Below, one piece after another: positions 17-57,907 of a stretch of 64,000 nucleotides of DNA. A program made the translations under genes and the position numbers. The stretch lies in the IMG/VR virus record IMGVR_UViG_3300031857_000065, positions 34,476 through 98,475 of that record, one strand, 5' to 3'. Each line of letters starts with the position of its first letter. The stretch's first letter is position 1. Source of the DNA: a virus. A model generated the notes under the pieces. That model was given only the letters and a program-made list of their open reading frames with translations, was not told the origin of the DNA and searched no databases.

Positions 17-19
17 ATT

Positions 20-844: not shown

Positions 845-854
845 ATCTATTATC

Positions 855-2737: not shown

Positions 2738-2740
2738 AAC

Positions 2741-4832: not shown

Positions 4833-4845
4833 AATTTATCTCATT

Positions 4846-5643: not shown

Positions 5644-5646
5644 ATT

Positions 5647-6564: not shown

Positions 6565-6565
6565 A

Positions 6566-7525
6566 TTATTCTAACCCCAACCAATTAATTGTGTGTCTTA
6601 CATTGTTCGGATACATAAGATATTTTTCATAATACTCTCTTGCATTAGTAGATACAAATCTTAAAAATTCTTTGTCATCTATTACTTCTAAATAACGTTG
6701 CTCTATTAACTTTGCGTGATGTTCTAATCCCATCCTATCTAATCCAACACCACAAGTACGTTGTTCTGTTGGTAAGTCATTCGGCCTATCTACTGAAATA
6801 TAGTGTACATTTGGAATTAATGGTTCTTTAAGACTGCTAGCGAATTCAAAACGCAAAAACGGTATACCCATTCCCATATATTCAATATCTCTATAACACA
6901 ACTCACCAACACCGCCTATGGATAATCCGATTTCGTGATTAATTGCTTCGTTGAAATAATCATTTTGATTAATTGTTTGGCCTGATTCCAAGATAGATGG
7001 AGAAAAGTACTTTAAAATAGGACGGTCATCAATTTTACCACGAAAGTATAATTTTTTATTAAAATTGAGTATTAACTTTCTTTTATAAAAATATTCTTCT
7101 AAATTAGTCAATCCACTTTGAAAATAAATCCATGGGGAATATTTACTGGTATGTGGATTTTCTACGTTGTGTTTAATAATTTGGTCTATGTACTGTGCCA
7201 CCAATACTTTTTTTAAGTGTGGATTCTCTCTTTCAGCTATTACGTGTCCGGTCAATACATCACACGCTGTCAATATATAGAAGTCACCCGATTCTACGTT
7301 TTCTATAACGTAGTCTGATTCATAAATTTCTAAATCACATTTTGCCTTTTTGAGTTTTATTGGCATTGGTATTGTATGGGCATGTTCGAAATATCTGTTT
7401 TCTTCAATTTCAAACGTTTTACCTAACTCGTAAGTCAAAGCATCCCAAAAAAAATTATAATATCTATAATACCTAGTGTACTTGTTGCAGGAATTATGAA
7501 TACGTAATTTTGTTTTGTGCTGCAT
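6566..7525 (-). CDS. Putative glycosyltransferase-like protein, unknown specificity
   Basis: 319 aa from the ATG at 7525. Longer reading frames reach back to 7651 but would overlap the upstream gene by 125 bases, whereas this ATG lies one base past the upstream stop (7529-7527). The C-terminal half has a GLSIGGVGELCYRDIEYMGM run (about residues 215-234) followed by GIPFLRFEF, reminiscent of the nucleotide-sugar lobe of GT-B enzymes where a glycine-rich loop precedes a conserved glutamate. The N-terminus (MQHKTKLRIHNSCN) looks like an acceptor domain. I do not recognise a defined family. Confidence 0.45.
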   Translation of the reverse strand: MQHKTKLRIHNSCNKYTRYYRYYNFFWDALTYELGKTFEIEENRYFEHAHTIPMPIKLKKAKCDLEIYESDYVIENVESGDFYILTACDVLTGHVIAERENPHLKKVLVAQYIDQIIKHNVENPHTSKYSPWIYFQSGLTNLEEYFYKRKLILNFNKKLYFRGKIDDRPILKYFSPSILESGQTINQNDYFNEAINHEIGLSIGGVGELCYRDIEYMGMGIPFLRFEFASSLKEPLIPNVHYISVDRPNDLPTEQRTCGVGLDRMGLEHHAKLIEQRYLEVIDDKEFLRFVSTNAREYYEKYLMYPNNVRHTINWLGLE

Positions 7526-7526
7526 T

Positions 7527-8768: not shown

Positions 8769-8769
8769 A

Positions 8770-10089: not shown

Positions 10090-10120
10090 AAAACCCTCAT
10101 TTATATAACCTGTACACAAG

Positions 10121-18800: not shown

Positions 18801-20933
18801 CGTAATAGACGGTGTTGTGGTAATACTCGGAGTAGTTGTAATTGACGGAGTAGTAGTAATACTTGGTGTAGTGGTAATAGATGGCGTAACGGTAATACTT
18901 GGCGTGACACTAGGAGTGGTAGTGATACTTGGCGTTGTAGTAATAGATGGTGTAGTAGTAATACTGGGTGTAATACTTGGTGTTGTGGTGATACTTGGGG
19001 TAGTAGTAATACTTGGGGTAGTAGTAATACTTGGGGTAGTAGTAATACTTGGGGTTGTAGTAATAGATGGTGTAGTGGTAATAGATGGTGTAGTGGTAAT
19101 GGAAGGTGTGACACTTGGTGTAGTAGTAATACTAGGCGTTGTAGTAATAGATGGCGTTCTAGTAATAGATGGCGTTACAGTAATACTTGGGGTAGTCGTA
19201 ATACTTGGAGTAGTGGTAATAGAAGGCGTAGTAGTAATACTTGGAGTTCTAGTAATAGACGGTGTATTAGTAACGCTGGGTGTTGTAGTAATACTCGGAG
19301 TAGTCGTAATACTTGGTGTTGTGGTAATGGAAGGTGTGACACTTGGGGTAGTAGTAATACTAGGCGTGGTAGTAATAGACGGTGTTGTAGTAATACTTGG
19401 CGTAATACTCGGCGTGGTAGTAATACTCGGCGTTGTGGTAATAGATGGTGTGACTGTAATAGATGGTGTTATACTTGGCGTAATAGTAATTGACGGCGTT
19501 GTTGTGATAGACGGTGTTACAGTAATAGATGGTGTAGTGGTAATAGAAGGCGTAGTGGTAATACTTGGAGTTCTAGTAATACTCGGCGTTGTAGTAACAC
19601 TCGGTGTAGTAGTAATAGACGGTGTGGTCGTAATAGATGGCGTAATACTTGGGGTGGTGGTAATACTAGGCGTTGTTGTAATACTAGGCGTTGTAGTAAT
19701 ACTAGGGGTAACAGTTATACTTGGTGTAGTGGTAATAGATGGTGTTACAGTAATAGACGGTGTTGGTGTTGGTGTTGGTGTTGTAGTTGGCGTTGGACTC
19801 GGTGCAGCAACGGCACCATCCAAATCCATAATAACAATGGCTGCATCAGAAATTGTCGCATTTACGTTTGCTTCTGGACGCCATGCGATGACTTTTGTAA
19901 TCGACCCCGCAGTTAATGATTCAACGTCCGTCCATCCGTGTGCAAATTCGTCAATATTATTAACGGATGCTTCACGGAGTGGTTGGCGGGTTGCTGTATA
20001 TTGACCAGGTTCCGTAGTTGAAGTACCAAAGTGAGAAAAGACTGATGAGTTAGTTGCGCTAATTTTTGTCGTCCACGTACCCACCACTAAATGATTGCCT
20101 GTGTTTGCAATAGTTGGCGTATATGTTATTATGGCGGTTGGTGCACCGGCACTTGTAGAGTCTATTTGTGCAGATTCACTGACCGCGGCATACGTTTCTG
20201 CAAATTTAGACCTGTCTAATGCTAATAATGTTCGATATTGATTGACAATATTTTGTCCGTTTGGTGAGCTATGTTCTAGTGAAAACGTTGTTGTTGCACC
20301 AAGAGAAGCCGTTACGATTGCAAAATATGGTGTTATTCCTAATGTATCTTTTGCATAATACTGTGTTCGTACCATATAGGTGTTTGTGCCGTCAGACAAT
20401 TGTACAACCATATCATCCGCTGCTTGTGCCGTTCGTGGAGTATTGACGTTACACGATCCAAACACAAACCATTCGCCAGCAGGAATATTAATAGAATCTA
20501 TTGGAGTAGCTACGGCATTTGTTGTAGCAATTTGTGTGCTATCATATGAAGAAACGTCAGCATCATCTAATTCTAACACATTAATATACGCGTCAGAAAT
20601 GGTAGCAGTACCGGCGGATGCACTCCATTGTATAGCAAATTCAATTGTTGTAGTAGATGAAGCAGTAAATACGTTTACATCCACTGCACTCATTCTGTCC
20701 GTTAAGTCTTGTGGTTCAAATTCAAATTGCTGTAATGTTACTCCATTAGTAACGTTTTGTAGTCGAACGCGCGCACGAGAAGTTAACGCACTATGACTCA
20801 TTATTGCTGACCAGAATATCGCATAGCGTTTACCCGCCGTAACACTAACACTTACGGAAGTACGACTACTGTATGCAGTTAGAGGGGATCCTGAAGCTGC
20901 TGTTTGTGCAGCTTGTGAATATATTCTGGCCAT
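15861..20933 (-). CDS. Giant mucin-like TPSIT-repeat virion protein B (1690 aa)
   Basis: Residues 1-~375 are globular and beta-rich and look like two related sandwich domains (both end in ATISDAYINVLELD / ATISDAAIVIMDLD). About 376-1583 is TPSIT-x / TPSI repeat. The last ~107 residues (VKVSDIAIYGIELRY onwards) form a distinct C-terminal domain rich in Tyr and Val. There is no Cys-rich cap, unlike proteins A and C. The N-terminus (MARIYSQAAQTAASG) starts after GAGGTAG. Probably a long virion fibre: N-terminal attachment or receptor domains, a mucin-like stalk, and a C-terminal tip. No homologue beyond the repeat family is recognised. Confidence 0.78.
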   Translation of the reverse strand: MARIYSQAAQTAASGSPLTAYSSRTSVSVSVTAGKRYAIFWSAIMSHSALTSRARVRLQNVTNGVTLQQFEFEPQDLTDRMSAVDVNVFTASSTTTIEFAIQWSASAGTATISDAYINVLELDDADVSSYDSTQIATTNAVATPIDSINIPAGEWFVFGSCNVNTPRTAQAADDMVVQLSDGTNTYMVRTQYYAKDTLGITPYFAIVTASLGATTTFSLEHSSPNGQNIVNQYRTLLALDRSKFAETYAAVSESAQIDSTSAGAPTAIITYTPTIANTGNHLVVGTWTTKISATNSSVFSHFGTSTTEPGQYTATRQPLREASVNNIDEFAHGWTDVESLTAGSITKVIAWRPEANVNATISDAAIVIMDLDGAVAAPSPTPTTTPTPTPTPSITVTPSITTTPSITVTPSITTTPSITTTPSITTTPSITPSITTTPSITTTPSVTTTPSITRTPSITTTPSITTTPSITVTPSITTTPSITITPSITPSITVTPSITTTPSITTTPSITPSITTTPSITTTPSITTTPSVTPSITTTPSITTTPSITTTPSVTNTPSITRTPSITTTPSITTTPSITTTPSITVTPSITRTPSITTTPSITTTPSVTPSITTTPSITTTPSITTTPSITTTPSITTTPSITTTPSITTTPSITPSITTTPSITTTPSITTTPSVTPSITVTPSITTTPSITTTPSITTTPSITTTPSITVTPSITTTPSITTTPSVTPSITTTPSITTTPSVTPSITTTPSVTTTPSVTPSITTTPSITTTPSVTTTPSITTTPSITTTPSITTTPSITPSVTVTPSITVTPSITTTPSVTATPSVTVTPSITATPSVTRTPSVTPSITVTPSITTTPSITTTPSITPSITTTPSVTTTPSITTTPSITPSVTITPSITTTPSITPSITTTPSVTATPSITTTPSITTTPSVTVTPSITASPGVSVTPSITVTPSITTTPSITPSITVSPSITATPSVTVTPSATTTPSITTTPSITTTPSITTTPSITTTPSITTTPSITTTPSITTTPSITVTPSITTTPSITTTPSITATPSITVTPSITTTPSITTTPSITTTPSVTPSITTTPSITTTPSITPSITTTPSVTTTPSITTTPSITRTPSITTTPSVTTTPSVTTTPSVTPSITTTPSITTTPSITTTPSITTTPSITTTPSITRTPSITTTPSVTPSVTTTPSVTPSITNTPSITTTPSVTPSVTITPSITTTPSVTPSITNTPSVTTTPSITTTPSVTTTPSITTTPSITATPSITTTPSITTTPSITTTPSITRTPSITTTPGSTPSVTVTPSITTTPSITTTPSVTRTPSITTTPSITTTPSITTTPSITRTPSITPSITTTPSVTSTPSITTTPSVTRTPSITTTPSITPSITTTPSITTTPSITTTPSITTTPSITTTPSITRTPSVTRTPSITPSITTTPSITTTPSITRTPSITTTPSITRTTSVTPSITTTPSITTTPSITTTPSITTTPSITRTPSITTTPSITRTSGVTPSVTTTPSITPSITVSITPSITKTPSITPTRSVTKTPTVTPTITPTRSTTPTVTPSVTITPSITPSITPSEVKVSDIAIYGIELRYKVGMVEHSYIGGVNQSLPVKDQGNIWVYGEQLLYSDYSGVTRVITGARVQITNRKAGEIFIKNGRLYWVIGDDITNYEFALSNESSFSY
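16183..19790 (-). repeat. TPSIT-coding tandem repeat array, ~3.6 kb
   Basis: Same 18/12-base architecture as in protein A. Local runs are near identical, for example GTAGTAGTAATACTTGGG repeated at about 16450-16500 and 19005-19055, which suggests recent local duplication. Interruptions ASPGVSV (near 18100) and TTPGSTP (near 17030) occur. Confidence 0.9.
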
Positions 20934-29651: not shown

Positions 29652-31985
29652 TTACGCTGTTGGGAATGTAGCGCCCGTTGGAAGAACGTTGAAGTCAAGA
29701 ATAATGAATTCAGCGGTCTTTGTCGGTTGTAGATAGAGTTGTCCATAGAGGATGTTTCTATCGATAATATCCGGTGTATTGTTGGTTTCATCCATAATAA
29801 CACGGAATGCGTACAAACCAGAACGTTCTTGGACACTTGCCAAATATGGATTGACAATGTTTAAGAAACGGTTACGAGTGGATTCCACGTTTTGTTCGAA
29901 TACGAGGTAACGTGAAACACTTGCAATATATTTCTTCACAGCGATTAACAAACGACGGACATTTACACGGTCAAGTGCTGATGGACGGCGTTGTAAGGTC
30001 TTTTGACCCCATACACAGATGCCTTGACCTGGGAACTGTGCGATTGGGTTTACCTTACCTTCGTACAATGTGTCACGAAGTGCTTGTGGAAGTCTTGCAC
30101 GTACACCGACTGCACTTGCGATACCACCACGATTCAAACCAGCTGGTGCAAACCATTCTGCTGCAACGTTGTCGTTGTATGCATAAATTTCTGGAAGAAT
30201 GACTGAAGGTGGAACCCAAAGCAATTTGTTTGTATTTACATCAATGACTCTTAACCAAGGATAGTAAGTTGCTGCATAGTTACTATCAATTTCTGCAGCC
30301 TTACCAGTTGCGTTTGCAATGGTCGAGTTCAATCCAACAGTATCCATCAAATAGAATGCATCACCACGTTCTTCACACAAACTTAATGCTTCGTTTGCGA
30401 TATACGAATGATATTCGTAAATAACGCCTGGAAGTACAAGAAGGTTGAAGTCCCATTGGTCTTGATTACTGATAGCTTGGATAGCTTTCTTATATGCTAC
30501 TGAACCATCGGTTGTTGAATTTGCTAAATTAAATCCTTGTGAATTTGAAGCAACAATGTCACCACCGAGATTAATATCACGTGCTGGATTTAATCCGTCA
30601 AATCCGCCTTGGAATGGAACAGAGAATTTACGATATGCGAGACTGTCATCATCATCAATATCAATAGTCTTTGATGTCAATCCATCTGGAACATCACTTA
30701 ATGATTCAAGATTAAATGCTGAACCAACACTTACTGAGCCTGATGGAATTGGTGCAAGATATGATGGATTTGTACCTTCTGTGGTCATAAAGTTCCAACC
30801 ATAGTAGTACTTCTTATCTACTGCATCAATTGAATATCCTTCCGTTGAACCACTCAACCAACGTGAAGTGACATAATCTGGTGATACTAATGCTGTTGAA
30901 GTTACACTTACTGGTGATTGTAGTGCCGCAAATCCATATGGTACTGCTGTTTTTGGAATTACTGCATCGCTCATTTCAACATATACATACTTTGAACGAT
31001 TTGGGAAATCACCTTGATAATAACGTTCGTCAGTATTTGGATCGTCATATGGAGCACTATTACCAACAACACGTGCGATAAATTGTGGACTATCTGGATC
31101 CAATGTTACATTATCATATTGTTCAAGAACTTCAATACGTGCATCCGTATCATCATATGAACGAATCAACATAGTAAATGTTGCCCACTCATCTTCATCA
31201 GATGCTTTTTTCATATTCAAGAATGATACTTTAATTTCTTTATTTGATGCTACACCGTCACCCAATGTCCAGAATTTAAACAAGTCAATGTTATCACCAC
31301 CAACTGTTTGTGATTGAATCCAAGGAGTTGATGCGTTACTGTATCGACCGTATACTGAACCAGAGAAGAACAATGCTGTACTTGAGGTTACTGCGGACAT
31401 AGTGACTGCGGTTCCAACAGATGTTATTGCTTCTGGGAAGATTGCATACACATACGCACCCTTACTAGTTGCCGGTGTGTATCCAAAAAAATCACCTAGA
31501 TATGCTGATGAACCTGCGTCGCCACTTAATCCACTTGCACTAATATCAGCTGCGGTTCCTGGAACGTTTACTGAAAGATTAAAACTTCCAGAATTTCCTA
31601 ATATAGTAACATCTGAAATAGTGTTACCAGTACTACTTGGATGCAATACTGCAAACAATTTTTGACCAGTTGATCCACTTGCGTAGATTAATGCTGGTAC
31701 AACTTCATCATTATCGTATCCGTTTAATCCAAGAACACGAACGATGGTTGCTACACCTGCTTCACGTAGATAATTTTTTACTGTTAATCCCGTATAGTGA
31801 TTTGCGTCGGCTTCACCAAATTGGGTAACATACTCTTGTTGACTTCTAACGATAGTTGGAATAAATGCTGGACCTTTTGGTGTCGGTCCAATGAATGCAC
31901 CCCCGATTTCACTAATACCTTGAGTCAAGAAACTCAAATCTCTTTCTCTAGTGAAAACGCCTGGTGACACAATGCGTTCTGCCAT
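29652..31985 (-). CDS. Contractile tail sheath protein (gp18-like)
   Basis: 777 aa, somewhat longer than T4 gp18 (659 aa). The N-terminus SPGVFTRERDLSFLTQGISE, followed by GGAFIGPTPKGPAFIP, is the classic sheath signature. The C-terminal portion has YPWLRVIDVNTNKLLWVPPS, AGLNRGGIASAVGVRARLP and QGICVWGQKTLQRRPSALDR with VNVRRL, all conserved in sheath domain IV that forms the contractile lattice. The extra length lies in the middle, surface-exposed domains. Strong SD (GGAGGATTCGT) before the ATG. Confidence 0.95.
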   Translation of the reverse strand: MAERIVSPGVFTRERDLSFLTQGISEIGGAFIGPTPKGPAFIPTIVRSQQEYVTQFGEADANHYTGLTVKNYLREAGVATIVRVLGLNGYDNDEVVPALIYASGSTGQKLFAVLHPSSTGNTISDVTILGNSGSFNLSVNVPGTAADISASGLSGDAGSSAYLGDFFGYTPATSKGAYVYAIFPEAITSVGTAVTMSAVTSSTALFFSGSVYGRYSNASTPWIQSQTVGGDNIDLFKFWTLGDGVASNKEIKVSFLNMKKASDEDEWATFTMLIRSYDDTDARIEVLEQYDNVTLDPDSPQFIARVVGNSAPYDDPNTDERYYQGDFPNRSKYVYVEMSDAVIPKTAVPYGFAALQSPVSVTSTALVSPDYVTSRWLSGSTEGYSIDAVDKKYYYGWNFMTTEGTNPSYLAPIPSGSVSVGSAFNLESLSDVPDGLTSKTIDIDDDDSLAYRKFSVPFQGGFDGLNPARDINLGGDIVASNSQGFNLANSTTDGSVAYKKAIQAISNQDQWDFNLLVLPGVIYEYHSYIANEALSLCEERGDAFYLMDTVGLNSTIANATGKAAEIDSNYAATYYPWLRVIDVNTNKLLWVPPSVILPEIYAYNDNVAAEWFAPAGLNRGGIASAVGVRARLPQALRDTLYEGKVNPIAQFPGQGICVWGQKTLQRRPSALDRVNVRRLLIAVKKYIASVSRYLVFEQNVESTRNRFLNIVNPYLASVQERSGLYAFRVIMDETNNTPDIIDRNILYGQLYLQPTKTAEFIILDFNVLPTGATFPTA

Positions 31986-32300: not shown

Positions 32301-32309
32301 CATAAATAT
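32301..32309 (-). promoter_or_regulatory. Candidate promoter element (ATATTTATG) of the sheath unit
   Basis: Minus-strand ATATTTATG, one mismatch to the recurring motif, 32 bases upstream of the coiled-coil gene that precedes the sheath gene. Confidence 0.45.
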
Positions 32310-32339
32310 ATGAAATTTTTCTGAAACATTGATATTTTT

Positions 32340-34874: not shown

Positions 34875-36467
34875 TTAAACTCTTGAGAGCTTGTCGAGGT
34901 AGATCTTACCGAAGAATTCCGGACGAACAATCTTCTTCGCGTAACGGGTCATTACGCCGCGACGTGGTGTGAAGTTGTTTGGATCATAGACAAGTGGGGT
35001 CATAATTAATGGAATGTATGGTGCATATACTGCGCCAGTTTCCAAGAATTGTGAACCACGGAAGCCCATCAACATTACGTTTTCCTTCATGTATGGGTTC
35101 TTGTATACGGTGAAACGGTTAGCAAATGAACCAATCTTGGTTACACCAGCTGCGAATTCCATCTTGTCACCATCGGTACCAGCTTGGAAGCCAGGAATGG
35201 TTTCAAGAATTGTTGCTGCGGTTGGCGAAACAACTGCGAAGTTTGCACCACCACGCATTGTTGCTTGGTGAATCTTGTTTGATACTTTTTGCATCTTTTG
35301 ACCAAGTGTTTGGTACCAGGTCATATTGGTCCATGCAGTTCCTTGGAAAGAGTTAGCTGCAAAGGTTGAACCGTTCCATACAGTACCAATTTCTGCTGAC
35401 CAGTATTCGGTGTTAGCTGCTGGTGCTGCTGCAATTAACATATCAAGAATTTCAAGGTCAATTTCAGTTGCAACATAGTCACTCAACATTGCTGTTAATT
35501 CTGCTTCTGCGTCAATTGAGTGGTATGCGTTCAAGTCTTGTGCAAGTTCTGGTGACCAGACTGCCTTCAACTTACGGGTCTTAGCAACGATAGTTTCTGA
35601 CTTAAGTTCCAAATCAATTTGTGGAATTGCCAAATCAGTTGTTGCGTCAACTGGACCGCCTGTACGATCTTCAAAGTCACCACGGGTTGTGTCCGTTGGT
35701 TGCTTGACAAAGAACAAATGTGTTGCTGCATCGTTTGTAGTTGCGTTTACGATGAAGGTAAGATTTGTACCATCATACTTGGTAAATTCTGGAAGCAATT
35801 TGCTTGCAAAATCAACGGTTGAACCAGAAATTACGAATGCACGTGATGCTAAGAAATCACCGTTTGATGCAGAAACTGCTGGTACTACGTACTTGGTCAA
35901 TGAACCAGTTACAAGGAATTCATCATTGTAGTTTACATCAGCAAATGTTACTGATTGTGATGCTACTGAATTGATTGCAACTGACGCGTCATTGATTGAG
36001 TAGCCATAACGTCCTGCACCATACAAACCACCGGTAGTTTGGTTACCGAAAGTGGTGAATGGTGAAGAAAGTGTACTACCATAAAGTGATTGTTGTGCGG
36101 TTTGACCGTTTGCGGTATTACCGTACTTGAAGTCCATATAGAACACCAAACCTGCTGGGAGGTTCATTGGTTGAACTGATACGAAATTCTTTGATGCAAT
36201 TGAACCAAAGACCTTACGGACTAATGGAAGTGCAACACCTGCCCAGTTTTCACCAGCTGTGCCTGCACCTTGTGGATTTGTTACTGTTACTTCACTGATA
36301 AGTTGTTGTGCTTGGTTTTCAAGCAAAACTGACATACCTTGCTTTTCATATCCCTTTAAGCCTTCAAGAAGACCTGACTTTTCCCACTTTGCTGATAATC
36401 CGCGTGTTTGGTTGATGATTACATCGTGAGCGGACTTAGCTTCACTAATAAGTTCATGTACTGACAT
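34875..36467 (-). CDS. Major capsid protein (gp23-like)
   Basis: 530 aa (T4 gp23 is 521). LISEVTVTNPQGAGTAGENW at residues about 56-76 and PLVRKVFGSIASKNFVSVQP are characteristic of gp23, as is LKAVWSPELAQDLNAYHSID later. The sequence QQLISE (residues 54-59) followed by Val fits the (L/I)-x-E cleavage rule of the gp21 protease and is near the place where T4 gp23 is cut (residue 65), so the first 59 residues are probably removed on maturation. GGAG precedes the start; a strong terminator follows. Confidence 0.95.
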   Translation of the reverse strand: MSVHELISEAKSAHDVIINQTRGLSAKWEKSGLLEGLKGYEKQGMSVLLENQAQQLISEVTVTNPQGAGTAGENWAGVALPLVRKVFGSIASKNFVSVQPMNLPAGLVFYMDFKYGNTANGQTAQQSLYGSTLSSPFTTFGNQTTGGLYGAGRYGYSINDASVAINSVASQSVTFADVNYNDEFLVTGSLTKYVVPAVSASNGDFLASRAFVISGSTVDFASKLLPEFTKYDGTNLTFIVNATTNDAATHLFFVKQPTDTTRGDFEDRTGGPVDATTDLAIPQIDLELKSETIVAKTRKLKAVWSPELAQDLNAYHSIDAEAELTAMLSDYVATEIDLEILDMLIAAAPAANTEYWSAEIGTVWNGSTFAANSFQGTAWTNMTWYQTLGQKMQKVSNKIHQATMRGGANFAVVSPTAATILETIPGFQAGTDGDKMEFAAGVTKIGSFANRFTVYKNPYMKENVMLMGFRGSQFLETGAVYAPYIPLIMTPLVYDPNNFTPRRGVMTRYAKKIVRPEFFGKIYLDKLSRV

Positions 36468-36484: not shown

Positions 36485-37573
36485 TTATAGAATGCCTGCG
36501 AGTTGTTGTAAACGTTTTGCTATCGTATTTTCAACGATAACTTCAGCCTTTGGTGCTGTACTTGGTGTAGCTTTTGATGCTAAACCTTCTACTACAACTT
36601 TCTTGCGTGATGCGTTGAAAGTTTTAGCTGCTACTGAAAGATTTTCTACAAGTGCAGCGTAAACAAGCTTAACTTCACGAACGGTGGTTGCTCGATCGAA
36701 TGATTCGACAATGCGAACTTTTTGATCATTATTGAGTCCTTCCTTACGGAAAATCTTGTTTGTAAAGAGTAACTTAGCGTTTAACAAGTTAACTTCTTGT
36801 AAACGGCCACGGAGAACATTAACTGCTTCTCTATATTGTGCGAGTTCTTGCTTGAGTCCTGCAAGTTTAGCAGCCATTGCGTGTGTCTTGTCCTCACCAC
36901 CATGTGCTTCAGCACCGGCTAGGTCGTCTTCGGCTTCAAGTTCTGCAAGAATTTCTTCAAGGGAAACTTCTTCTTCTTTTTCTTCACTTTCCTTTAATTC
37001 TTCCTTCTCTTCTTCTTCCTTTGCTTCAGCTACTGGAGCTTCTTTTTCTTCTTCCTTTGCTTCAGCTACTGGAGCTTCTGGCATTTCTTCTTCTGATTCT
37101 TCTTTATTTTCTTCCGAACCAGAGAGAGCTGCGATATCGTTTTCTAATTCTTTGATAATTTCACCGAGATCGAAATCTGCTTCGTCCCAATCATCATACC
37201 AATCGGTTTCACTATCAGATGGTGCTTCACCACTCATATCCATTTCTGATGCATCAAATGCATCATCTGATGGTTCTTTGTTGTCGCCGGTGCCGATAGT
37301 TGAACTGTCAGCTGGCATTTCGGAAGAACCTTCTGCTTCACCATCTTCAAATGGTGTTTCTGTTGCTTCTTCCATTTCTGGTGCGTCTTTCTTAAGTTCT
37401 GGTGTTTCCGTAGCACCTTCTGCTTCAACACGGAGACGGCGTGCAATCATACCCTTAATTTGTGGGGTGATTGATTCTTCCAAAACGAGCTTAGCATTAG
37501 CAATAGCAGTTTCACGAACTGCTTCTGCATCTGCAATAGCTTGTTTTAAAAGCTTGTTAGTAATTTCTGCCAT
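36485..37573 (-). CDS. Prohead core scaffolding protein (gp22-like)
   Basis: 362 aa. The central ~140 residues are extremely acidic and low-complexity (runs such as KEEEKEAPVAEAKEEEEKEE), flanked by helical ends: KLLKQAIADAEAVRETAIAN at the N-terminus and FRKEGLNNDQKVRIVESFDR near the C-terminus. Charge, helicity and place just upstream of the capsid gene match T4 gp22, the internal core that shapes the prohead and is later digested. A repeat of APVAEAKEEE occurs twice. Confidence 0.82.
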   Translation of the reverse strand: MAEITNKLLKQAIADAEAVRETAIANAKLVLEESITPQIKGMIARRLRVEAEGATETPELKKDAPEMEEATETPFEDGEAEGSSEMPADSSTIGTGDNKEPSDDAFDASEMDMSGEAPSDSETDWYDDWDEADFDLGEIIKELENDIAALSGSEENKEESEEEMPEAPVAEAKEEEKEAPVAEAKEEEEKEELKESEEKEEEVSLEEILAELEAEDDLAGAEAHGGEDKTHAMAAKLAGLKQELAQYREAVNVLRGRLQEVNLLNAKLLFTNKIFRKEGLNNDQKVRIVESFDRATTVREVKLVYAALVENLSVAAKTFNASRKKVVVEGLASKATPSTAPKAEVIVENTIAKRLQQLAGIL

Positions 37574-37665
37574 AAAATGTTACTCCTATAGGGATTTAAG
37601 TAGATATTAGTATCTGCTATTTTACTTTGAAATTAAACCCACTAATAATAAACTAGTGTTTCTAT

Positions 37666-37674
37666 AATAAATAT
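37666..37674 (-). promoter_or_regulatory. Possible promoter element (ATATTTATT) of the scaffold-capsid unit
   Basis: Minus-strand ATATTTATT, one mismatch, in the 133-base gap between the bS21-like and scaffold genes. It is 93 bases from the ATG, farther than the other examples, so this one is weaker. Confidence 0.3.
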
Positions 37675-37706
37675 AAGGTTATTTTCTAAAAATTCAATTT
37701 TATTAA

Positions 37707-37916
37707 TTAATACTTTTTTTGACGAGCTAATCTTTTTTCTTCCCGTTTTCGTCTACGAAGAGCTTCTTGGCGCTTTGCTATACGTTTTTTAGATGGCTTC
37801 AAAAAAAATTCTCTACGTTTAAGTTCTGGGATTAGTTCTGATTTTTTTACCATACTATTGAAAACCTTTAAAGCCTTTGACAACTCATCTTTTCCTTCTC
37901 TTACCGTAACTTCCAT
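37707..37916 (-). CDS. rpsU: Ribosomal protein bS21 homologue
   Basis: 69 aa, the size of cellular bS21 (71 aa in E. coli). The order VREGKDELSKALKVF, ELIPELKRREFFLKPSKKR, then a Lys/Arg-rich helix (RRRKREEKRLARQKKY) matches bS21 motifs (VREN, ALRRFKR, RRREFYEKP). bS21 binds the 30S platform near the anti-Shine-Dalgarno end of 16S rRNA and helps initiation. Phage copies are known and may replace the host protein to favour phage mRNAs. It is expressed with head genes, with a strong SD (GGAGGAAGT) of its own. I see no frameshift or missing region. Confidence 0.88.
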   Translation of the reverse strand: MEVTVREGKDELSKALKVFNSMVKKSELIPELKRREFFLKPSKKRIAKRQEALRRRKREEKRLARQKKY

Positions 37917-37933
37917 ACTTCCTCCGAAATTAT

Positions 37934-39406
37934 TTAACGTGGTTTAACTCTTATTCCAAATCTTTTTGCGTACGCATTTACCATACCCATTGCTTGTTTA
38001 TACGCTGAATGTGTTTTGTCTTTACGTAATGCCGTCTGTACAAAAATCTTCTCACCCGTATCTGGATTAGTGACTTTACTTCTTAATAATTGTTTTATTG
38101 TTTCTCTTTTTGATTTTGGTGTGGTAGTTGGTGGTGCTGGTTGTGGTTTCTTTACAGCCAAACGTTTTTTTGCTGCGTTTTCAATTTCTTTCGCAGGTTG
38201 CCCGTCCTTTGGATAATCAAATATAGGTTTTTTAATTTGAGCTAACAACTGATCCCTTTCATTCTGGTCTTTACCCAATGCGTATAAAAATTTATGTTTA
38301 CCAGTTTCCGGCTTTAATTTCTCAATAAAAAATCCTTTGTCTGCTAACGATTTTAGTACAGAAGATTTAATTGTTGTTCGAGTTACTGTATCGCCTGTTT
38401 TTGGATCCGTAATTGCCCAACCAGTACGAGGTGGTTGTTCTCCAAGATATGTTGCATTACTTGCTTTATACACAGACCCTGCGTGACCTTGTGCGCTGTC
38501 TGCGTAGGATACAATTGCTTTTACTGGTTTACCGTCTTTAGTTTTTGCGTTTGTACGAATGTATTCATTACCACGCGATATTACCATTGACCCAAGATTT
38601 GGTACTAATTGTTTTGCTTCGTCAGTAGTGAACGCCCGTTGAAGTTCCCACAGTTGATTGTTTGCCATCACACCTGGTCCAAAAATATCGGTTGCCGCTT
38701 GCCCTCTTGTCCCAATACCATAGACCAATGTTCCCGACAATTTACCATCAACATATACGCCTAATGTGGATTGAACAGACTTTGGCCATTTTTTGAGATA
38801 ATGTTGGGTACGTATCCACTCGTCTGCTTGTACGTAATCGTCATCACCTTTTTTAATAGGACGAAGTTCAACTTCTTTTTTAGGAGATGTTGTAGGTTCT
38901 TCAGGTTCTTTTACTTGATGCACCAACATCTTAACGTCTGGATATTTTGCTTTTAATTTATTGACTGCTTCAATATTTTTTGGTGAGTCGTCAACAAATG
39001 CAACTCTAGTGTATCCGTCTTGTATTTGTTTTTCTATGTATCTTGCTTTTTTTTCTGGGTTGGAATCTCCCAGTGCCGCAATTGCAACACTACCCGAACG
39101 AATTCCAATCATTTTTAAAAATTGTGCAACTGGTCTAGTATGCCCTCGGGCCGTTAAAACCACAACTTTATCTGCGCTCTCTACTGCAGCTTTTAATAAT
39201 TTAACAAATCGTTGAATTGGTCGTGGATTTTTTAATTGCTCAAATTCTGAAAAATCAAATTGATCGCCCGGCTGTTCTTCATATGTAGCATATTCAGCTG
39301 GATCCATTTCTATCCGATTACCATTTCTAACGACAATAACCTTGGCATCTGTGCGTGCCAAGGTATCATCAAAATCTGTTACAAATAAAGTCTTTCCCTT
39401 TGCCAT
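37934..39406 (-). CDS. HAD-family phosphatase / Mom-like fusion protein
   Basis: 490 aa in three parts. Residues 1-~165: HAD hydrolase with LFVTDFDDTLART (motif I, D-x-D-x-T), VVVLTARG (motif II) and VAFVDDSPKNIEA (motif IV). Residues ~175-330: a domain resembling phage Mu Mom-type GNAT-fold proteins, with WIRTQHYLKKWPKSVQSTLG, LWELQRAFTTDE and IVSYADSAQGHAGSVYKASN. Residues ~430-490: a basic module, LLRSKVTNPDTGEKIFVQTA, also found at the end of the 53193-55760 protein. Mom modifies adenines in phage DNA; whether this domain does so is unproven. It lies between head genes and could be packaged. Confidence 0.72.
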   Translation of the reverse strand: MAKGKTLFVTDFDDTLARTDAKVIVVRNGNRIEMDPAEYATYEEQPGDQFDFSEFEQLKNPRPIQRFVKLLKAAVESADKVVVLTARGHTRPVAQFLKMIGIRSGSVAIAALGDSNPEKKARYIEKQIQDGYTRVAFVDDSPKNIEAVNKLKAKYPDVKMLVHQVKEPEEPTTSPKKEVELRPIKKGDDDYVQADEWIRTQHYLKKWPKSVQSTLGVYVDGKLSGTLVYGIGTRGQAATDIFGPGVMANNQLWELQRAFTTDEAKQLVPNLGSMVISRGNEYIRTNAKTKDGKPVKAIVSYADSAQGHAGSVYKASNATYLGEQPPRTGWAITDPKTGDTVTRTTIKSSVLKSLADKGFFIEKLKPETGKHKFLYALGKDQNERDQLLAQIKKPIFDYPKDGQPAKEIENAAKKRLAVKKPQPAPPTTTPKSKRETIKQLLRSKVTNPDTGEKIFVQTALRKDKTHSAYKQAMGMVNAYAKRFGIRVKPR

Positions 39407-39877: not shown

Positions 39878-40462
39878 TTATTTTATTTCGCTGAGGAAAT
39901 CGTGAATTAATTTGTCAATATTGTCATAAGGCGCAACAACTTTTGATTGAACATTTTCGTTGATAAATGCACCAATAGTTGATGGATTACTAACAATATC
40001 AAAACAAATTAACGAAAAATCTTCTTGTACTTCAACGGTGTTTTCTCCAAGCGATTTTACCGAACCCATACCTCGGGACGATACGCCTAGACGGATATTG
40101 TTCTTAATAAGTTCACGAACAATATTACCAGTTGGTGTGGTGAGTATTTCAATGTCTCCACGAACGTCATCACCTTCTGTCCATAATCCGACGATATTGC
40201 AGCAAACATTCTTAAGGTTGACAACTGGACTTTCTGGATGGTCGAGTTCACCTAATGCTCGGCGGCTTTCCACAAAGTTCTTCTTATACATAGCCGCTTC
40301 ACGCATCAAAATTTCTTTTGGATAGACTCGGCCGTTTTGGTTTTTGGCATCGGCACGTTGTAATACGACATTACGAAGAACTAATGGTTTGTTACTGTCC
40401 ATTGCTTCCGTTAGAATACTACGGTCGTATTGTAATTCAGTATATTCACAAAGTAATGCCAT
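39878..40462 (-). CDS. Prohead core protease (gp21-like)
   Basis: 194 aa, close to T4 gp21 (212 aa). The serine-protease fold of herpesvirus assemblin type is indicated by ALGELDHPE (catalytic His, about residue 77) and NIRLGVSSRGMGS (catalytic Ser, about 130). AKNQNGRVYPKEILMREAAM is also typical. It cuts capsid, scaffold and internal proteins after (L/I)-x-E during head maturation, which is relevant to the many head-region proteins here that carry such sites near their N-termini. Confidence 0.92.
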   Translation of the reverse strand: MALLCEYTELQYDRSILTEAMDSNKPLVLRNVVLQRADAKNQNGRVYPKEILMREAAMYKKNFVESRRALGELDHPESPVVNLKNVCCNIVGLWTEGDDVRGDIEILTTPTGNIVRELIKNNIRLGVSSRGMGSVKSLGENTVEVQEDFSLICFDIVSNPSTIGAFINENVQSKVVAPYDNIDKLIHDFLSEIK

Positions 40463-42480: not shown

Positions 42481-44385
42481 CTAACCGTCCAATTTAGTGT
42501 CTGGAATAATGCTGTCAGCAATCATCTGACGGTATTTACTTACACCCTTTCTAGGTAATTTGTCTAGAAATTGCTTGGCTTCCGTAGAAAGTGTACTTCT
42601 TTTATAGGTTTTGGTATTTTCTTTATGCCCCAAAGGATCTCTACCTAACGGATGTCTATCCGTACCAAATTTTAATCCTTCACGGGGACGACCAACTTTA
42701 TTTTTCACTAAAATTTCTTCCAGTTCATCGTCCATCGATTCATCTTCATCGATATCTTCCCCCAACGAATTTAAAATAGCATTTACATCGTCGAGTTCCT
42801 CTGGTTCCACACCATCTTCTTGGCCCATTTCTGGGTCTGGTCCTAATTCAACATCAGCATCTGCTGGAGTTGCTGGTTGTAATTCACCCGATGGAGCGTC
42901 ACCACCTTGTGTTCCCGATTCTTGTGGTTGTGCCGCAGCTTGTTGTTCTTGAACACGTTTAATATCGTCCATTATTTTTTTACGCTCATCTTCAACTTCT
43001 TCTTGCGACATTTCAAGAATATGCTTATATACCCAATCTTGTGAAAGAATTTGAGCTTGTCCGCCGGTCATATCTCTTGCCAAAGCAAACTTTTCTTTCC
43101 AAATATTAATTTTTTCTTGTTCGTAAAGCGTAGATGGATTTGTTAATGCTAATTCAAAATTTACCAATTCCTCGTCAGTAAATCCTTGAACATATAGATG
43201 AATAATAGCAATTTTAGTTAATTCCGATACCACGATACGTTGGATACGTTCAACTGTTCGAGCAAAGCGAACGTCTTGTGCAGCCAATGTAGCTTTTCCA
43301 TTAATATCTTCTTCATATCCAATAAATGATTTAGGGACTTTAAATGCTGCAAGTAACTTTTGACGAAGGTATTCAATATCTTCAATAGCATTAAATTGTA
43401 GACCTTGCATTGTTTCAATGTCAGTACCCGAATCTCTACCACGAACGGGCATATAAAAATCTTCTACAATGTTCATCATGTTATAACGAAGATTATAATC
43501 ACCAGTTTTTGGATCGATAAGTGGTGACTTTTTCATGCGATCAATAATACGCTGCATATATGTTTCCACTTCATTTGGTGGAATATTACCAATATCAATC
43601 TTAAACTTACGTTTATCTGGTGCACGCATAATGCGATGTACTAACATTGCGTCTTCCATCAATTGTAATTGCTTCCAGACACGACGACCGCCTTCAATCA
43701 TTGCCTTACCATATGGAAGGAAATTGGTATCAGAAAGGAGACGGAAGTGTGCAATTTCGTAATTATCGAATTCCTTTTTTCCAAGATTCAAGAAATCATT
43801 TTGTATGTGAAACTCTACAGAAAAAGGATTTTCTGGATTCGCACCTTCCACTCTAGTAGTTTCGTAAATTGATAACGGTACAGCGTTAACGATACCATAC
43901 TCTGGGTCTATGTCCAGATATAAGAAAAAATCCCCGTATTTTGTAAGATTGCGAATCCACGGCCAGAGATTAAATTCCACATTTAATACATCATAAAATA
44001 AATTTTCTAGAATCTGTTGAATTTGTGTGTTATCAGTTTTAATAGCAAGAATTTTACTGAATTCGTCTTTTACTGTAGATTCGTCTGCGTAAATGTCCAA
44101 CACAGAAGATATAATTGGATCATTATCCATCATATCGTAATCACGGAATAATTGGAGACGTGCGCCTTGAAATGCCGCTGCAGTTTCCATTCTACCGTAA
44201 TGTGAACCATATCCACCAGTTCCCGATTGATATACGCGAGTATATCTGTCAACACCTCGTCTATTGATAAAAGACTGAACGTTGTCTGTGTCAGCGATGC
44301 GTAATTTTTTACCACCGACATTTCTGACGATGGTACTTGTAGAAAATAATTTTTTAAGTCTTGAAAATACAGTATTATCTGCCAT
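42481..44385 (-). CDS. Portal protein (gp20-like)
   Basis: 634 aa, longer than T4 gp20 (524 aa). SGTGGYGSHYGRMETAAAFQ, RDYDMMDNDPIISSVLDIYA with DEST, and GKATLAAQDVRFARTVERIQ are highly characteristic of T4-type portals, which form the dodecameric DNA gate. The extra length is a C-terminal tail (about residues 480-634): Gln/Pro/Asp/Glu-rich, then KNKVGRPREGLKFGTDRHPL and a basic end. The tail may face the scaffold or internal proteins. GAGG precedes the ATG. Confidence 0.93.
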   Translation of the reverse strand: MADNTVFSRLKKLFSTSTIVRNVGGKKLRIADTDNVQSFINRRGVDRYTRVYQSGTGGYGSHYGRMETAAAFQGARLQLFRDYDMMDNDPIISSVLDIYADESTVKDEFSKILAIKTDNTQIQQILENLFYDVLNVEFNLWPWIRNLTKYGDFFLYLDIDPEYGIVNAVPLSIYETTRVEGANPENPFSVEFHIQNDFLNLGKKEFDNYEIAHFRLLSDTNFLPYGKAMIEGGRRVWKQLQLMEDAMLVHRIMRAPDKRKFKIDIGNIPPNEVETYMQRIIDRMKKSPLIDPKTGDYNLRYNMMNIVEDFYMPVRGRDSGTDIETMQGLQFNAIEDIEYLRQKLLAAFKVPKSFIGYEEDINGKATLAAQDVRFARTVERIQRIVVSELTKIAIIHLYVQGFTDEELVNFELALTNPSTLYEQEKINIWKEKFALARDMTGGQAQILSQDWVYKHILEMSQEEVEDERKKIMDDIKRVQEQQAAAQPQESGTQGGDAPSGELQPATPADADVELGPDPEMGQEDGVEPEELDDVNAILNSLGEDIDEDESMDDELEEILVKNKVGRPREGLKFGTDRHPLGRDPLGHKENTKTYKRSTLSTEAKQFLDKLPRKGVSKYRQMIADSIIPDTKLDG

Positions 44386-50263: not shown

Positions 50264-50272
50264 TATAAATAT
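50264..50272 (-). promoter_or_regulatory. Candidate promoter element (ATATTTATA) of the small head-protein unit
   Basis: Exact minus-strand ATATTTATA, 26 bases upstream of the ATG at 50238 in the 60-base gap after the terminase stop. Confidence 0.55.
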
Positions 50273-50298
50273 AAGGAAAAATTGTATTATCTATGGAT

Positions 50299-51879
50299 TT
50301 ATCCAAGTAACCAAGTAATATCTTCTGTTTGTCGATCCCCGATTTGCATCTGGTATGGGTTCTTTACTTGATTTCCGTTTAGTGCAAAAGGCATAGTTGT
50401 ATACGCAGTGCGTTCTAACGATAATTTTGTTAATTCAATTCCTTGTTGACGCAATCGTAGTGCCGTATCTCGTACCCACAAACCAATTCCTAATGCAAAT
50501 ATTAAGTCATCATTATATCCTTGCAATGCCTCTGCTCTACCATTTTTCCAAATAAAAGTTTCAAATTCAGTTATAGTTCTTACAGATTGGACTGTGATGG
50601 CATTTTCTCGCATATATTCTTCAATTTTAGCGATAATCAACGGACGCGTTCGAGATGAAACAACAAATCCAGGTTTCATATTTCGTTCAGTAACAAATTT
50701 TTTGTCAGTAATTTGATGTTCAACATCTACATAATGCATATCTGCTGACATATAGAATAGATTTCGGTATCCTCTGTCAATTACTTGTTGAATTGCCGCC
50801 CATCCAATCGATGAATTATCAGGTATTAATAAAGCGTCATTATATTGTGTAGCGATAGACATCATCAAATTACCAAATTCTTTTGTAGATAATTTACCTT
50901 TATATTCTGCTACCTGTAAAGATCGTTCTGCGTCAATAACATGAAATGTAGAAAAGTCTTCGCCATCACCACGTGCAACGTCCGCAGCGACGATATACGT
51001 CTTTCCTGGAATAGGATACTCCCATACCCATAGGTTGTTATCAAATCCCTGCTTTGATATTGGTTCTTTGATATGTGTTCTTTTATAGAATTCAATTATA
51101 TCTGGACTGACGACTGTGTTACCTGAAAATATGAAGGATGCATCGTGTTCTTGTGCCGCTTGCATCTCACCTAAAATTTCAGTCTGTCTATCTCTCCATG
51201 CCTGATCTCGTTCTGGATGAACTCTCCAATCTAATAATATTGTATTAAATTCATTTGTTTTTGCTTCTGCTTGTTGCCACATCTTGTGGAAGAAGTTACC
51301 GACACCATTTGGAGTAGAAATTAATATAGCTTTACCACCAGTTGATAACGTACTGGATGCTGCGGTCCAGATAATTTCCGCGTTATCGATAAACGCACAC
51401 TCGTCAAGAATAAGAAGAGACAATGCTTCAGAACGACCAGCATCTTTACTACTTGCTACAGCTTTAATTTGCGATCCATTTGCAAATCTCATCGATAACT
51501 TATTATCTTCTACCATACTTCCTCGTAACCAAACGGGAAGATTGGCATGCATAAATCTTACCTTTGTTACCAAGTTTTTTGCAGTATCTTGTTTTGTTGC
51601 GATAACTAATACGTTTTTATCTTTATGAAATAACATTAACCACAATGCATATCCTGCAACCAATGTAGAAAATCCGAGCTGGCGTCCCTTAAGAACAATA
51701 TTATATCGATTTTCTTCAAAATCCTGCATCGCGTTTAATTGGTATGTGTATAAATCAAACAACACCCGACCGCGAATCGGGTGTTGAATAAATGAGTATT
51801 TCTTTAAAAAGTATTCTGGACTCGCCGCACACTTTTTAAACTCTGCTTTAATAATATCTTTTATATTTGGTTGTGTCAT
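50299..51879 (-). CDS. Terminase large subunit (gp17-like)
   Basis: 526 aa. The ATPase domain has NIVLKGRQLGFST (Walker A-like, about residues 59-71), LSLLILDECAFI (Walker B with catalytic Glu, about 152-163) and KAILISTPNGVGN (coupling motif). The C-terminal nuclease domain has KTYIVAADVARGDGEDFSTF (first catalytic Asp) and LLIPDNSSIGW (second). It pumps DNA through the portal and cuts headful units. Slightly shorter than T4 gp17 (610 aa). The small terminase subunit was not recognised in the window. Confidence 0.95.
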   Translation of the reverse strand: MTQPNIKDIIKAEFKKCAASPEYFLKKYSFIQHPIRGRVLFDLYTYQLNAMQDFEENRYNIVLKGRQLGFSTLVAGYALWLMLFHKDKNVLVIATKQDTAKNLVTKVRFMHANLPVWLRGSMVEDNKLSMRFANGSQIKAVASSKDAGRSEALSLLILDECAFIDNAEIIWTAASSTLSTGGKAILISTPNGVGNFFHKMWQQAEAKTNEFNTILLDWRVHPERDQAWRDRQTEILGEMQAAQEHDASFIFSGNTVVSPDIIEFYKRTHIKEPISKQGFDNNLWVWEYPIPGKTYIVAADVARGDGEDFSTFHVIDAERSLQVAEYKGKLSTKEFGNLMMSIATQYNDALLIPDNSSIGWAAIQQVIDRGYRNLFYMSADMHYVDVEHQITDKKFVTERNMKPGFVVSSRTRPLIIAKIEEYMRENAITVQSVRTITEFETFIWKNGRAEALQGYNDDLIFALGIGLWVRDTALRLRQQGIELTKLSLERTAYTTMPFALNGNQVKNPYQMQIGDRQTEDITWLLG

Positions 51880-55798: not shown

Positions 55799-57907
55799 TT
55801 ATGTACATAAAAACTGACTTCCACCACAGTCTACATAATCCACGCATGCTAATACATAGGTTCCAAACGAACAATAATATAAATCTACCCCAAAACAGGC
55901 ATATGTGTCGTGTTGACACGAAGATGTCGGAGCAGGTGTAGGCGCAGGTGCTTCTGGTGATGGCGTTTCTGGTGATGGAGTTATTGGTGATGGTGTTTCA
56001 GGTGATGGCGTTTCTGGTGATGGAGTTATTGGTGATGGCGTTTCTGGTGATGGAGTTATTGGTGATGGCGTTTCTGGTGATGGAGTTATTGGTGAAGGAG
56101 TTATTGGCGAAGGAGTTATTGGCGATGGCGTATTTACACAAGAACCTCCACTACAAATTTGATCAGTTAAATCGCAATTTTGTACTGTGTAATTTGCTAC
56201 CGTAGAACAGTTAGCAAATTGATAAGTGGTACATCCTACTAAATATAAATCTTTACAATAAAGTGAACCTATACACCCAACTGAACATGCTACTGGCGAA
56301 GGCGTTACCGGCGAAGGCGTTACCGGCGAAGGCGTTACCGGCGAAGGCGTTACCGGCGAAGGCGTTACCGGCGAAGGCGTTACCGGCGAAGGCGTTACCG
56401 GCGAAGGCGTTACCGGCGAAGGCGTTACCGGCGAAGGCGTCACCGGCGAAGGTGTTGGTGATGGCGTTGGCGAAGGCGTCACTGGCGAAGGCGTTGGTGA
56501 TGGAGTTGGTGACGGCGTTACTGGCGATGGTGTTTTTGTTACAGATGGTGTTACTGTTCTAGTAATACTTGGCGTTCTAGTAATAGACGGTGTTACAGTT
56601 ATTGATGGCGTAATACTTGCTGTTTTAGTAATACTTGGCGTTCTAGTAATAGACGGTGTTGTGGTAACAGAAGGTGTAATACTTGGCGTTCTAGTAATAG
56701 ACGGCGTTGTGGTAACAGAAGGTGTAATACTTGGCGTTCTAGTAATAGACGGCGTTGTGGTAACAGAAGGTGTAATACTTGGCGTTCTAGTAATAGACGG
56801 CGTTGTGGTAACAGAAGGTGTAATACTTGGCGTTGTAGTAATAGACGGTGTTGTAGTAATACTTGGTGTAGTCGTAATAGATGGTGTAATACTTGCAGTT
56901 CTGGTAATAGATGGTGTTGTAGTAATAGATGGTGTTCTGGTAATACTTGGAGTTGTTGTAATGGATGGGGTTATACTTGGAGTTATAGTAATACTTGGGG
57001 TAGTGGTAATACTTGGAGTAATTGTAATTGATGGTGTAGTAGTTACTGATGGTGTAGTAGTGATACTTGGTGTTCTAGTAATAGAAGGCGTAGTAGTAAT
57101 ACTCGGTGTTTTAGTAATGGAAGGCGTTGTAGTTATAGAAGGCGTAATACTAGGTGTTGTGGTAATTGATGGCGTTGTAGTAATACTAGGTGTTGTGGTA
57201 ATTGATGGCGTTGTAGTAATACTAGGTGTTGTGGTAATAGATGGTGTAATACTTGGTGTAGTTGTGATAGACGGTGTAGTTGTGATAGATGGGGTAATAC
57301 TTGGGGTGGTAGTAATTGATGGCGTAGTGGTAATAGACGGTGTTGTGGTAATAGACGGTGTTGTGGTAATACTTGGAGTAATACTAATAGATGGAGTTCT
57401 AGTAATTGATGGCGTTGTAGTAATAGATGGTGTTCTGGTAATACTTGGAGTTGTTGTAATGGATGGGGTTATACTTGGAGTTATAGTAATACTTGGAGTA
57501 ATACTAATAGATGGAGTTCTAGTAATTGATGGCGTTGTAGTAATAGACGGCGTTTTAGTAACAGATGGTGTAGTAGTAATAGAAGGGGTAATACTTGGTG
57601 TTGTGGTAATAGATGGTGTTCTGGTAATACTTGGCGTTGTGGTAATAGATGGAGTAGGTGTAATTGATGGTGTTGTGGTAACACTAGGGGTAGATGTTAT
57701 TGATGGTGTTGGTGTAATAGTTGGTGTAACTGATCTTGATGGAGTAGTTGTTTGTGTTACAGTTGGTGTTATTGATGGAGTTTTTGTAAGTGATGGAGTT
57801 ATTGTTACACTAGGTGTTATTGATGGAGTTGGCGTAGGCGTTACTACCATCATAAATCCAAAACCACGGGCTGCTGCAGCACCGATATTGTTTACAATAG
57901 GAGTCAT
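55799..57907 (-). CDS. Mucin-like TPSIT-repeat virion protein C (702 aa)
   Basis: Head residues 1-20 (MTPIVNNIGAAAARGFGFMM) match the pattern of protein A. About 22-455 is TPSIT-x/TPSI repeat, then PSPVT repeats to ~540. A first Cys-rich domain follows (ACSVGCIGSLYCKDLYLVGC to CSGGSC, ~540-592), then PSPIT/PSPET repeats, then the terminal Cys-rich cap (SCQHDTYACFG... GGSQFLCT, ~660-702) almost identical to protein A's. The start is three bases from the upstream stop and has no clear SD, so it depends on coupling to the 874-aa gene. Probably a fibre stalk with disulphide-stabilised knobs. Confidence 0.8.
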   Translation of the reverse strand: MTPIVNNIGAAAARGFGFMMVVTPTPTPSITPSVTITPSLTKTPSITPTVTQTTTPSRSVTPTITPTPSITSTPSVTTTPSITPTPSITTTPSITRTPSITTTPSITPSITTTPSVTKTPSITTTPSITRTPSISITPSITITPSITPSITTTPSITRTPSITTTPSITRTPSISITPSITTTPSITTTPSITTTPSITTTPSITPSITTTPSITTTPSITPSITTTPSITTTPSITTTPSITTTPSITTTPSITPSITTTPSITKTPSITTTPSITRTPSITTTPSVTTTPSITITPSITTTPSITITPSITPSITTTPSITRTPSITTTPSITRTASITPSITTTPSITTTPSITTTPSITPSVTTTPSITRTPSITPSVTTTPSITRTPSITPSVTTTPSITRTPSITPSVTTTPSITRTPSITKTASITPSITVTPSITRTPSITRTVTPSVTKTPSPVTPSPTPSPTPSPVTPSPTPSPTPSPVTPSPVTPSPVTPSPVTPSPVTPSPVTPSPVTPSPVTPSPVTPSPVTPSPVACSVGCIGSLYCKDLYLVGCTTYQFANCSTVANYTVQNCDLTDQICSGGSCVNTPSPITPSPITPSPITPSPETPSPITPSPETPSPITPSPETPSPETPSPITPSPETPSPEAPAPTPAPTSSCQHDTYACFGVDLYYCSFGTYVLACVDYVDCGGSQFLCT
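56295..56444 (-). repeat. Perfect 15-bp tandem repeat (PSPVT-coding)
   Basis: Unit GGCGAAGGCGTTACC (plus strand) occurs nine times without a change from 56295 to 56429, and a tenth copy has one substitution. The sequence identity contrasts with the diverged codons of the neighbouring repeats and indicates recent expansion by slippage or unequal exchange. Confidence 0.95.
56527..57845 (-). repeat. TPSIT-coding tandem repeat array, ~1.3 kb
   Basis: Same 18/12-base unit structure as in proteins A and B. A longer unit of about 69 bases (PSVTTTPSITRTPSIT) is repeated four times at about 56640-56830. Confidence 0.9.

Follow-up and report, generated by a model that had tools for sequence, protein, structure and literature searches.

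The window, which is the whole 64,000-nucleotide stretch analysed, belongs to a 98,475-base virus record of a lake phage, and a single bS21 gene was found in the whole record. The genes and sequence elements at and around this gene are as follows.

29652–31985, minus strand: tail sheath (PF17482 and PF04984).
34875–36467, minus strand: major capsid protein, gp23 family (PF07068, 245.8 bits).
36485–37573, minus strand: acidic scaffold-like protein, 362 residues (position before gp23, conserved homologues).
37599–37618, minus strand: leader hairpin 2, loop ACTAAT, with one mismatch in the window phage (from alignment; 45 of 56 non-redundant relatives have a version of 7 bp or more).
37640–37659, minus strand: leader hairpin 1 (alignment A6, 100% of cells paired).
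37662–37677, minus strand: putative promoter-like motif CTTATATTTATTATAG before scaffold–capsid, near-invariant in eight aligned leaders.
37707–37916, minus strand: bS21 (RpsU), 69 residues (PF01165, TIGR00030, dN far below dS).
37921–37925, minus strand: GGAGG Shine–Dalgarno (SD) sequence of bS21, 4 nt before the ATG (sixth of 83 gene starts in pairing energy).
37934–39406, minus strand: fusion of a HAD/PNK-like and a Mom-like part, 490 residues (PF25680 Mom, 90.8 bits; phrog_1384, Mom-like; phrog_415, polynucleotide kinase).
39878–40462, minus strand: prohead protease, S77 (PF03420, 88.2 bits).
42481–44385, minus strand: portal, gp20 family (PF07230, 236.9 bits).
50299–51879, minus strand: large terminase (PF03237, 47 bits).

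The head-gene cluster runs, all on the minus strand, in the order portal, three ORFs, prohead protease, two small ORFs, HAD–Mom fusion, bS21, scaffold-like protein and gp23 capsid protein, and is flanked by the terminase and sheath genes, one on either side. The set expected of a T4-like myovirus (gp23 capsid, gp20 portal, S77 protease, T4-type terminase and contractile sheath) is complete. The scaffold-like protein gave no family match in Pfam or PHROG searches and was called from its position and acidic composition only. Two isolates come closest by capsid protein: Flavobacterium phage immuto, at 54.5%, and Microcystis phage Mel-JY01, at 50.0%. A large block of glycosylation genes occupies positions 1–10119 of the window and is also present in two other loci (L016 and L017); it comprises GlcNAc transferases, O-FucT, HPAT-like proteins (hydroxyproline arabinosyltransferase family), a fucosyltransferase, epimerases and a carbamoyltransferase. 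Very long ORFs with strong GC skew lie near this block (10646–15295, 15861–20933 and 55799–57907) and possibly encode repetitive collagen-like fibres.

The bS21 ORF is intact on the minus strand; the plus-strand translation of the same positions is interrupted by stops. The protein was matched by PF01165 (Ribosomal_S21) at 48.3 bits (cut-off 27), by TIGR00030 at 39.5 bits (curated cut-off 28.95) and by PHROG 21469 ('ribosomal protein S21') with an E value of 2.4e-6. It contains the RREFxxKPS-type core of bacterial bS21. Residues E31, R35, K40, P41 and S42 are constant across five phage types of the window clade and across four further rows, two from other phages and two from bacteria; P41 is replaced by K or R in some bS21 proteins of the window clade. 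The earlier note had counted a loss of 16S-contacting residues against its own reading; judged by sequence, the conserved core residues are kept. An AlphaFold model, for which 19 phage bS21 sequences were used as input, has helices at residues 9–25, 28–36 and 43–68 (pLDDT 79.9, pTM 0.36). When this low-pTM model was compared with the PDB in Foldseek, one irrelevant match (E = 6.8) and no bS21 chain were returned; a sequence search of the PDB with the window bS21 does match S21 chains of 30S subunits.

A protein scan of IMG/VR gave 14 bS21 loci, namely eight near-identical phages, one phage at 90%, four at 68–73% and one at 41% protein identity. Relatives were collected more widely by using three aligned capsid proteins as the query of a further scan, from which 80 of at least 596 confirmed loci were kept; with seven further loci, this made 87 rows, which were searched with an HMM. 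bS21 was present in 43 of the 87 rows (41 after the removal of two duplicates), always on the strand of the capsid gene (43 of 43), and in 39 of these 43 it lies no more than 500 nt before the scaffold ORF. In 20 rows whose upstream sequence spans 3 kb or more, the HMM search showed no bS21, and the 24 rows with neither a match nor 3 kb upstream were scored as bS21-unknown. When 24 loci, both non-carriers and comparators, were searched more sensitively, a single further bS21 came to light, in the 484-kb huge phage LR756508, about 2 kb before the capsid gene. A tblastn search of 50,697 phage records with the window bS21 gave no match at E = 0.01; this search is insensitive to diverged bS21, since Mel-JY01 carries the gene yet was unmatched. 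The placement of bS21 between the HAD/Mom fusion and the scaffold gene, to which attention had been drawn, is correct as a location, but it is special on the scaffold side only: on the other side, the Mom domain was found in three of the 87 rows, all of the window's own phage type. The HAD part alone, without Mom, is kept in some relatives.

The bS21 gene is under purifying selection. Comparison of locus L101, whose bS21 is identical to that of the window, with L013 gave a dN of 0.250 and a dS of 3.785 (dN/dS 0.066), and two closer pairs gave dN 0.023 against dS 0.671 and dN 0 against dS 0.517; dS was saturated in most other pairs. With the family models matched above their cut-offs, this upholds the proposal that positions 37707–37916 encode a genuine bS21 with the full family layout. 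The ORF is not a chance one, because of the purifying selection and the conserved slot in relatives; it encodes a real phage bS21 of an ordinary kind that is under selection. Mapped on the capsid tree, which has 53 non-redundant rows, the presence of bS21 takes five changes (shuffled mean 15.3, minimum 11), and with midpoint rooting presence is the root state. When the bS21-unknown rows were treated as a separate group, bS21-positive rows took 16 changes compared with 28 after shuffling. Three loci were left out of the trees and of the SD tests described below: L002 and L102, which both duplicate L101, and L009, whose capsid ORF is short. Pairwise bS21 and capsid identities are correlated across 40 rows (Mantel 0.60, with none of 1000 permutations as high), so the two genes have diversified together. 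The tree, the slot and the Mantel result suggest that bS21 is ancestral in the lineage and has been lost about five times since, i.e. that it is an old resident and not a recent single capture; a gene lost that often is dispensable.

The gap between bS21 and the scaffold gene is 133 nt. About 100 nt before the scaffold ATG lies a TATATTTAT-type motif, present in the eight aligned leaders and, in similar form, in most of the relatives' leaders listed; it is a candidate late promoter of the phage lineage. Motifs of this type also occur on the gene strand near 50265–50275 and 32302–32310, before several late genes. A generic sigma-70 scan did no better than chance (14 found, 12.4 expected), and the T4 late promoter TATAAATA was not enriched. 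In three relatives (L144, L127 and L164) a hairpin followed by a T-run can be read from the sequences after the bS21 stop codon. bS21 appears to be the last gene of an upstream unit, and scaffold–capsid a separate unit, because the promoter-like motif and the hairpin leader intervene and terminator-like hairpins follow bS21. In the available text of Chen et al. (2022; PMC9723584) the corresponding region is likewise not a single operon. The earlier note expected bS21 to be expressed late; late co-expression in other bS21 phages speaks for this (Chen et al., 2022), and the support that had been drawn from position is weakened, as bS21 is set apart from the scaffold–capsid genes.

The strong SD claimed for bS21 is present. 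Its 5 bp core has a predicted pairing energy with the 16S tail of about −9.5 kcal/mol. It is not exceptional, because it ranks sixth of 83 gene starts and many bacterial rpsU genes are preceded by strong SDs as well. Autoregulation through an extended SD, as in Flavobacterium, was considered and rejected on the same rank; the energy is not below −13. Over the 98-kb record, 40 of 83 gene starts have an SD, compared with 14% in shuffled sequence; the corresponding counts in the isolates are 25 of 43 for Mel-JY01 and two of 58 for immuto. Gene starts were called crudely as those of the longest ORFs, save for immuto and Mel-JY01, whose starts in the isolate comparison follow the record annotation, and rows with fewer than eight gene starts were excluded from the SD tests. 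An SD 4-mer stands before 20 of the 32 genes that make up the structural segment and before 25 of the 52 others (Fisher p = 0.26), and the predicted SD pairing energy does not differ between structural and other genes (p = 0.28). GGAG and GAGG sites are therefore no marker of structural mRNAs, and the suggestion that a late ribosome favours structural mRNAs through these sites finds no support in the counts.

bS21 is located on the 30S platform beside the 3′ tail of 16S rRNA and is exchangeable. In the reading that we prefer, with a probability of about 0.7, the phage bS21 acts on the host ribosome: it would be produced during infection, would exchange with, or top up, the host bS21 on the 30S platform, and translation initiation would be kept or tilted in the phage's favour while virions are being assembled. 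The window bS21 most likely fits the ribosome of an SD-using host, since its sequence is like that of bS21 from SD-using bacteria and SD sites are in use in the phage's own genes. The bS21 of pelagiphage HTVC008M enters Escherichia coli 70S ribosomes, and ribosomes carrying it yield about 5% of the control protein (Mizuno et al., 2019; PMC6375957), so that incorporation need not aid translation. In lake phages bS21 transcripts accompany structural transcripts late in infection, for which late ribosome substitution was proposed, and in 388 of 900 published bS21 phages a core structural gene lies no more than ten genes away (Chen et al., 2022; PMC9723584). The same hijacking of the ribosome was proposed by Al-Shayeb et al. 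(2020), and bS21 paralogues change protein output in Francisella tularensis (Trautmann & Ramsey, 2022). As far as the available text of these reports goes, phage bS21 genes, which the earlier note had rightly called known, their association with capsid genes, their transcription late in infection and the substitution in ribosomes are all already published, and the idea of that note is in print (Chen et al., 2022; Mizuno et al., 2019; Al-Shayeb et al., 2020).

The strongest competing explanation, which we regard as rather unlikely, is maintenance without selectivity, in which the phage bS21 would keep the 30S subunit replete when the host supply stops or is removed and all translation would rise equally. 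The exchangeability of bS21 (Mizuno et al., 2019; McNutt et al., 2023, PMC9976891) agrees with this, as does the finding that SDs are not preferred in structural over other genes; the strong SD of the bS21 gene itself points the same way, although many bacterial rpsU genes are alike in this. Maintenance leaves the lasting position beside the capsid genes unexplained, however, and the published models favour selectivity, which is itself a proposal there (Chen et al., 2022; PMC9723584).

The ribosome type to which the window bS21 corresponds was assessed by sequence comparison. Its top relatives in the PDB are non-Bacteroidia (8fmw, E = 3.4e-7, compared with E = 0.087 for F. johnsoniae 7jil), and the local score of the identical L101 protein against F. 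johnsoniae bS21 is 42 below that of the best non-Bacteroidia row. At the column of F. johnsoniae Tyr54 the window bS21 has Arg; an aromatic residue is found there in four of 37 bS21 rows (rows with at least eight gene starts). On these comparisons the window bS21 is not Bacteroidia-like and is not of the Tyr54 type that sequesters the anti-SD. Loci L144, L163 and their kin belong to the same lineage and have bS21 in the same slot, with a bS21 that matches that of F. johnsoniae best and with few SD sites; this set provides a natural contrast for ribosome-type matching. A profile search of genome contigs with a phage-only bS21 alignment gave zero relatives. Among the best 80 of at least 146 relatives from a contig scan with a looser pattern, distant bS21 proteins of Bacillota, Spirochaetota and others were found, and the top near-full-length bacterial bS21 proteins among these 80 reached about 45% identity and belonged to scattered phyla; the pattern is biased towards the REF/KPS signature. 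With about 45% identity at best and this bias, the donor cannot be named, and neither scan gave a donor or host lineage among the matches listed.

A reading in which Tyr54 of a Bacteroidota host bS21 hides the anti-SD and the Arg-containing phage bS21 frees it, so that SD-bearing phage mRNAs win, was tested because the nearest Flavobacterium phage, immuto, is nearly without SDs and no bS21 was seen in the part of it examined. Translation from strong SDs goes up three- to fivefold in F. johnsoniae when bS21 is truncated or carries Y54A (McNutt et al., 2023; PMC9976891). The window bS21 has the Arg and its phage uses SDs heavily, and immuto, nearest by capsid, combines two SDs in 58 starts with no bS21 in the 49 kb examined. 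SDs are pooled at 295 of 669 starts in bS21 carriers and 68 of 335 in non-carriers (uncorrected Mann–Whitney p = 2.6e-4, 37 and 19 loci), and the Bacteroidia-likeness of bS21 falls as SD use rises (uncorrected Spearman −0.59, 37 rows). With independent contrasts as a correction for phylogeny, however, the relations of SD use to bS21 presence (r = 0.23, p = 0.10) and to bS21 type (r = −0.12, p = 0.48) both weaken; the uncorrected correlations arise from a few deep splits. SDs are also used by three of the four phages with an aromatic residue at bS21 position 54, and nothing points to a Bacteroidota host for the window phage, whose bS21 is not Bacteroidia-like. Unmasking of the anti-SD thus fails on the Tyr54 rows and on the contrasts; it is very improbable and is not claimed here. 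A host switch with a matching bS21 would also explain the pattern of bS21 type and SD use.

Just as improbable is an extra-ribosomal or virion role, as a small basic helical RNA- or DNA-binding protein recruited to head assembly and perhaps packaged: the bS21 slot adjoins scaffold and capsid, an extra-ribosomal part in the OLE RNA complex has been reported for bS21 elsewhere and packaging was suggested by Chen et al. (2022; PMC9723584), but a pure head role would need neither the bS21 signature that is kept (R35 and K40–S42, window numbering) nor a bS21 type that roughly tracks bacterial ribosome types.

The leader before scaffold–capsid was analysed in 69 relatives whose scaffold ORF is near-complete; removal of redundancy left 56 leaders. 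A hairpin of at least 7 bp with a loop ending in AAT is present in 45 of the 56, compared with an expectation of 1.2 (at most 4 in any of 60 Markov shuffles); the search pattern was built on what had been seen, so that this count is a description with a shuffle control and not a blind test. The hairpin sits 17–33 nt before the scaffold start codon and its 5′ stems have 21 different sequences. In eight close leaders 98% of the cells are paired, with compensatory changes at three pairs. In the window clade a second hairpin precedes the AAT-loop hairpin. Homologues of the hairpin include those of L009, L106, L121, L129, L163 and L179. No Rfam family was matched in the window, and no other gene of the 98-kb record has the AAT-loop hairpin close in front of it. 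It may be an operator or stabiliser of the capsid mRNA, acting on translation or on mRNA stability. According to the available text of a T4 review, T4 gene 43 has a hairpin operator some 40 nt upstream to which the gene 43 product binds; with the leader hairpin this is a functional analogy only. In a literature search no description of a scaffold–capsid leader hairpin was found.

The 30S platform can serve as a docking site for structured mRNAs. It is conceivable, if a long shot, that the phage bS21 and the leader hairpin form one system, in which ribosomes with the phage bS21 would preferentially dock and initiate on the capsid mRNA. The end of the hairpin would lie where the mRNA leaves over the 30S platform that holds bS21, and where the phage lacks bS21 the host protein would take its place in reading the hairpin. 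The 45 leaders with the hairpin come from 26 bS21 carriers, 16 non-carriers and three unknowns; since it occurs with or without bS21, the two are not yet tied.

Several described systems can be set beside the window phage. The huge phages that infect freshwater Bacteroidetes and form clades a–e of Chen et al. (2022; PMC9723584) are likewise freshwater myoviruses with bS21 a few genes from protease, capsid, portal and terminase, and the same ribosome substitution was proposed for them, with late transcripts measured. As described there, they differ in that their bS21 lies on the strand opposite to the structural genes, whereas in the window, as in each of the 43 related rows, it is co-directional; and in an aromatic residue at the Tyr54 position, where the window protein, which is not Bacteroidia-like, has Arg. 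Mel-JY01 (PP395634), which is T4-like with a capsid protein 50% identical to that of the window phage, has an annotated RpsU between protease and capsid that is co-directional as in the window, and it too uses SDs; its bS21 is only about 31% identical, and two annotated genes separate it from the scaffold position. The HTVC008M bS21 (PMC6375957) belongs to a phage bS21 family that is under purifying selection, as is the window gene, but has a clear donor, being 54% identical to Pelagibacter bS21, whereas no donor was found for the window bS21. F. johnsoniae rpsU (McNutt et al., 2023; PMC9976891) has a strong SD, as does the window gene; the window SD is 5 bp, Tyr54 is absent and many other genes have an SD.

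To these systems the window adds a lineage in which a co-directional bS21 has been kept vertically, with natural losses, with variation at Tyr54 and with both SD-using and SD-poor members. Comparison of such sister phages makes the question of specialised ribosomes testable. The leader hairpin, a by-product of this analysis, may matter more than bS21 itself.
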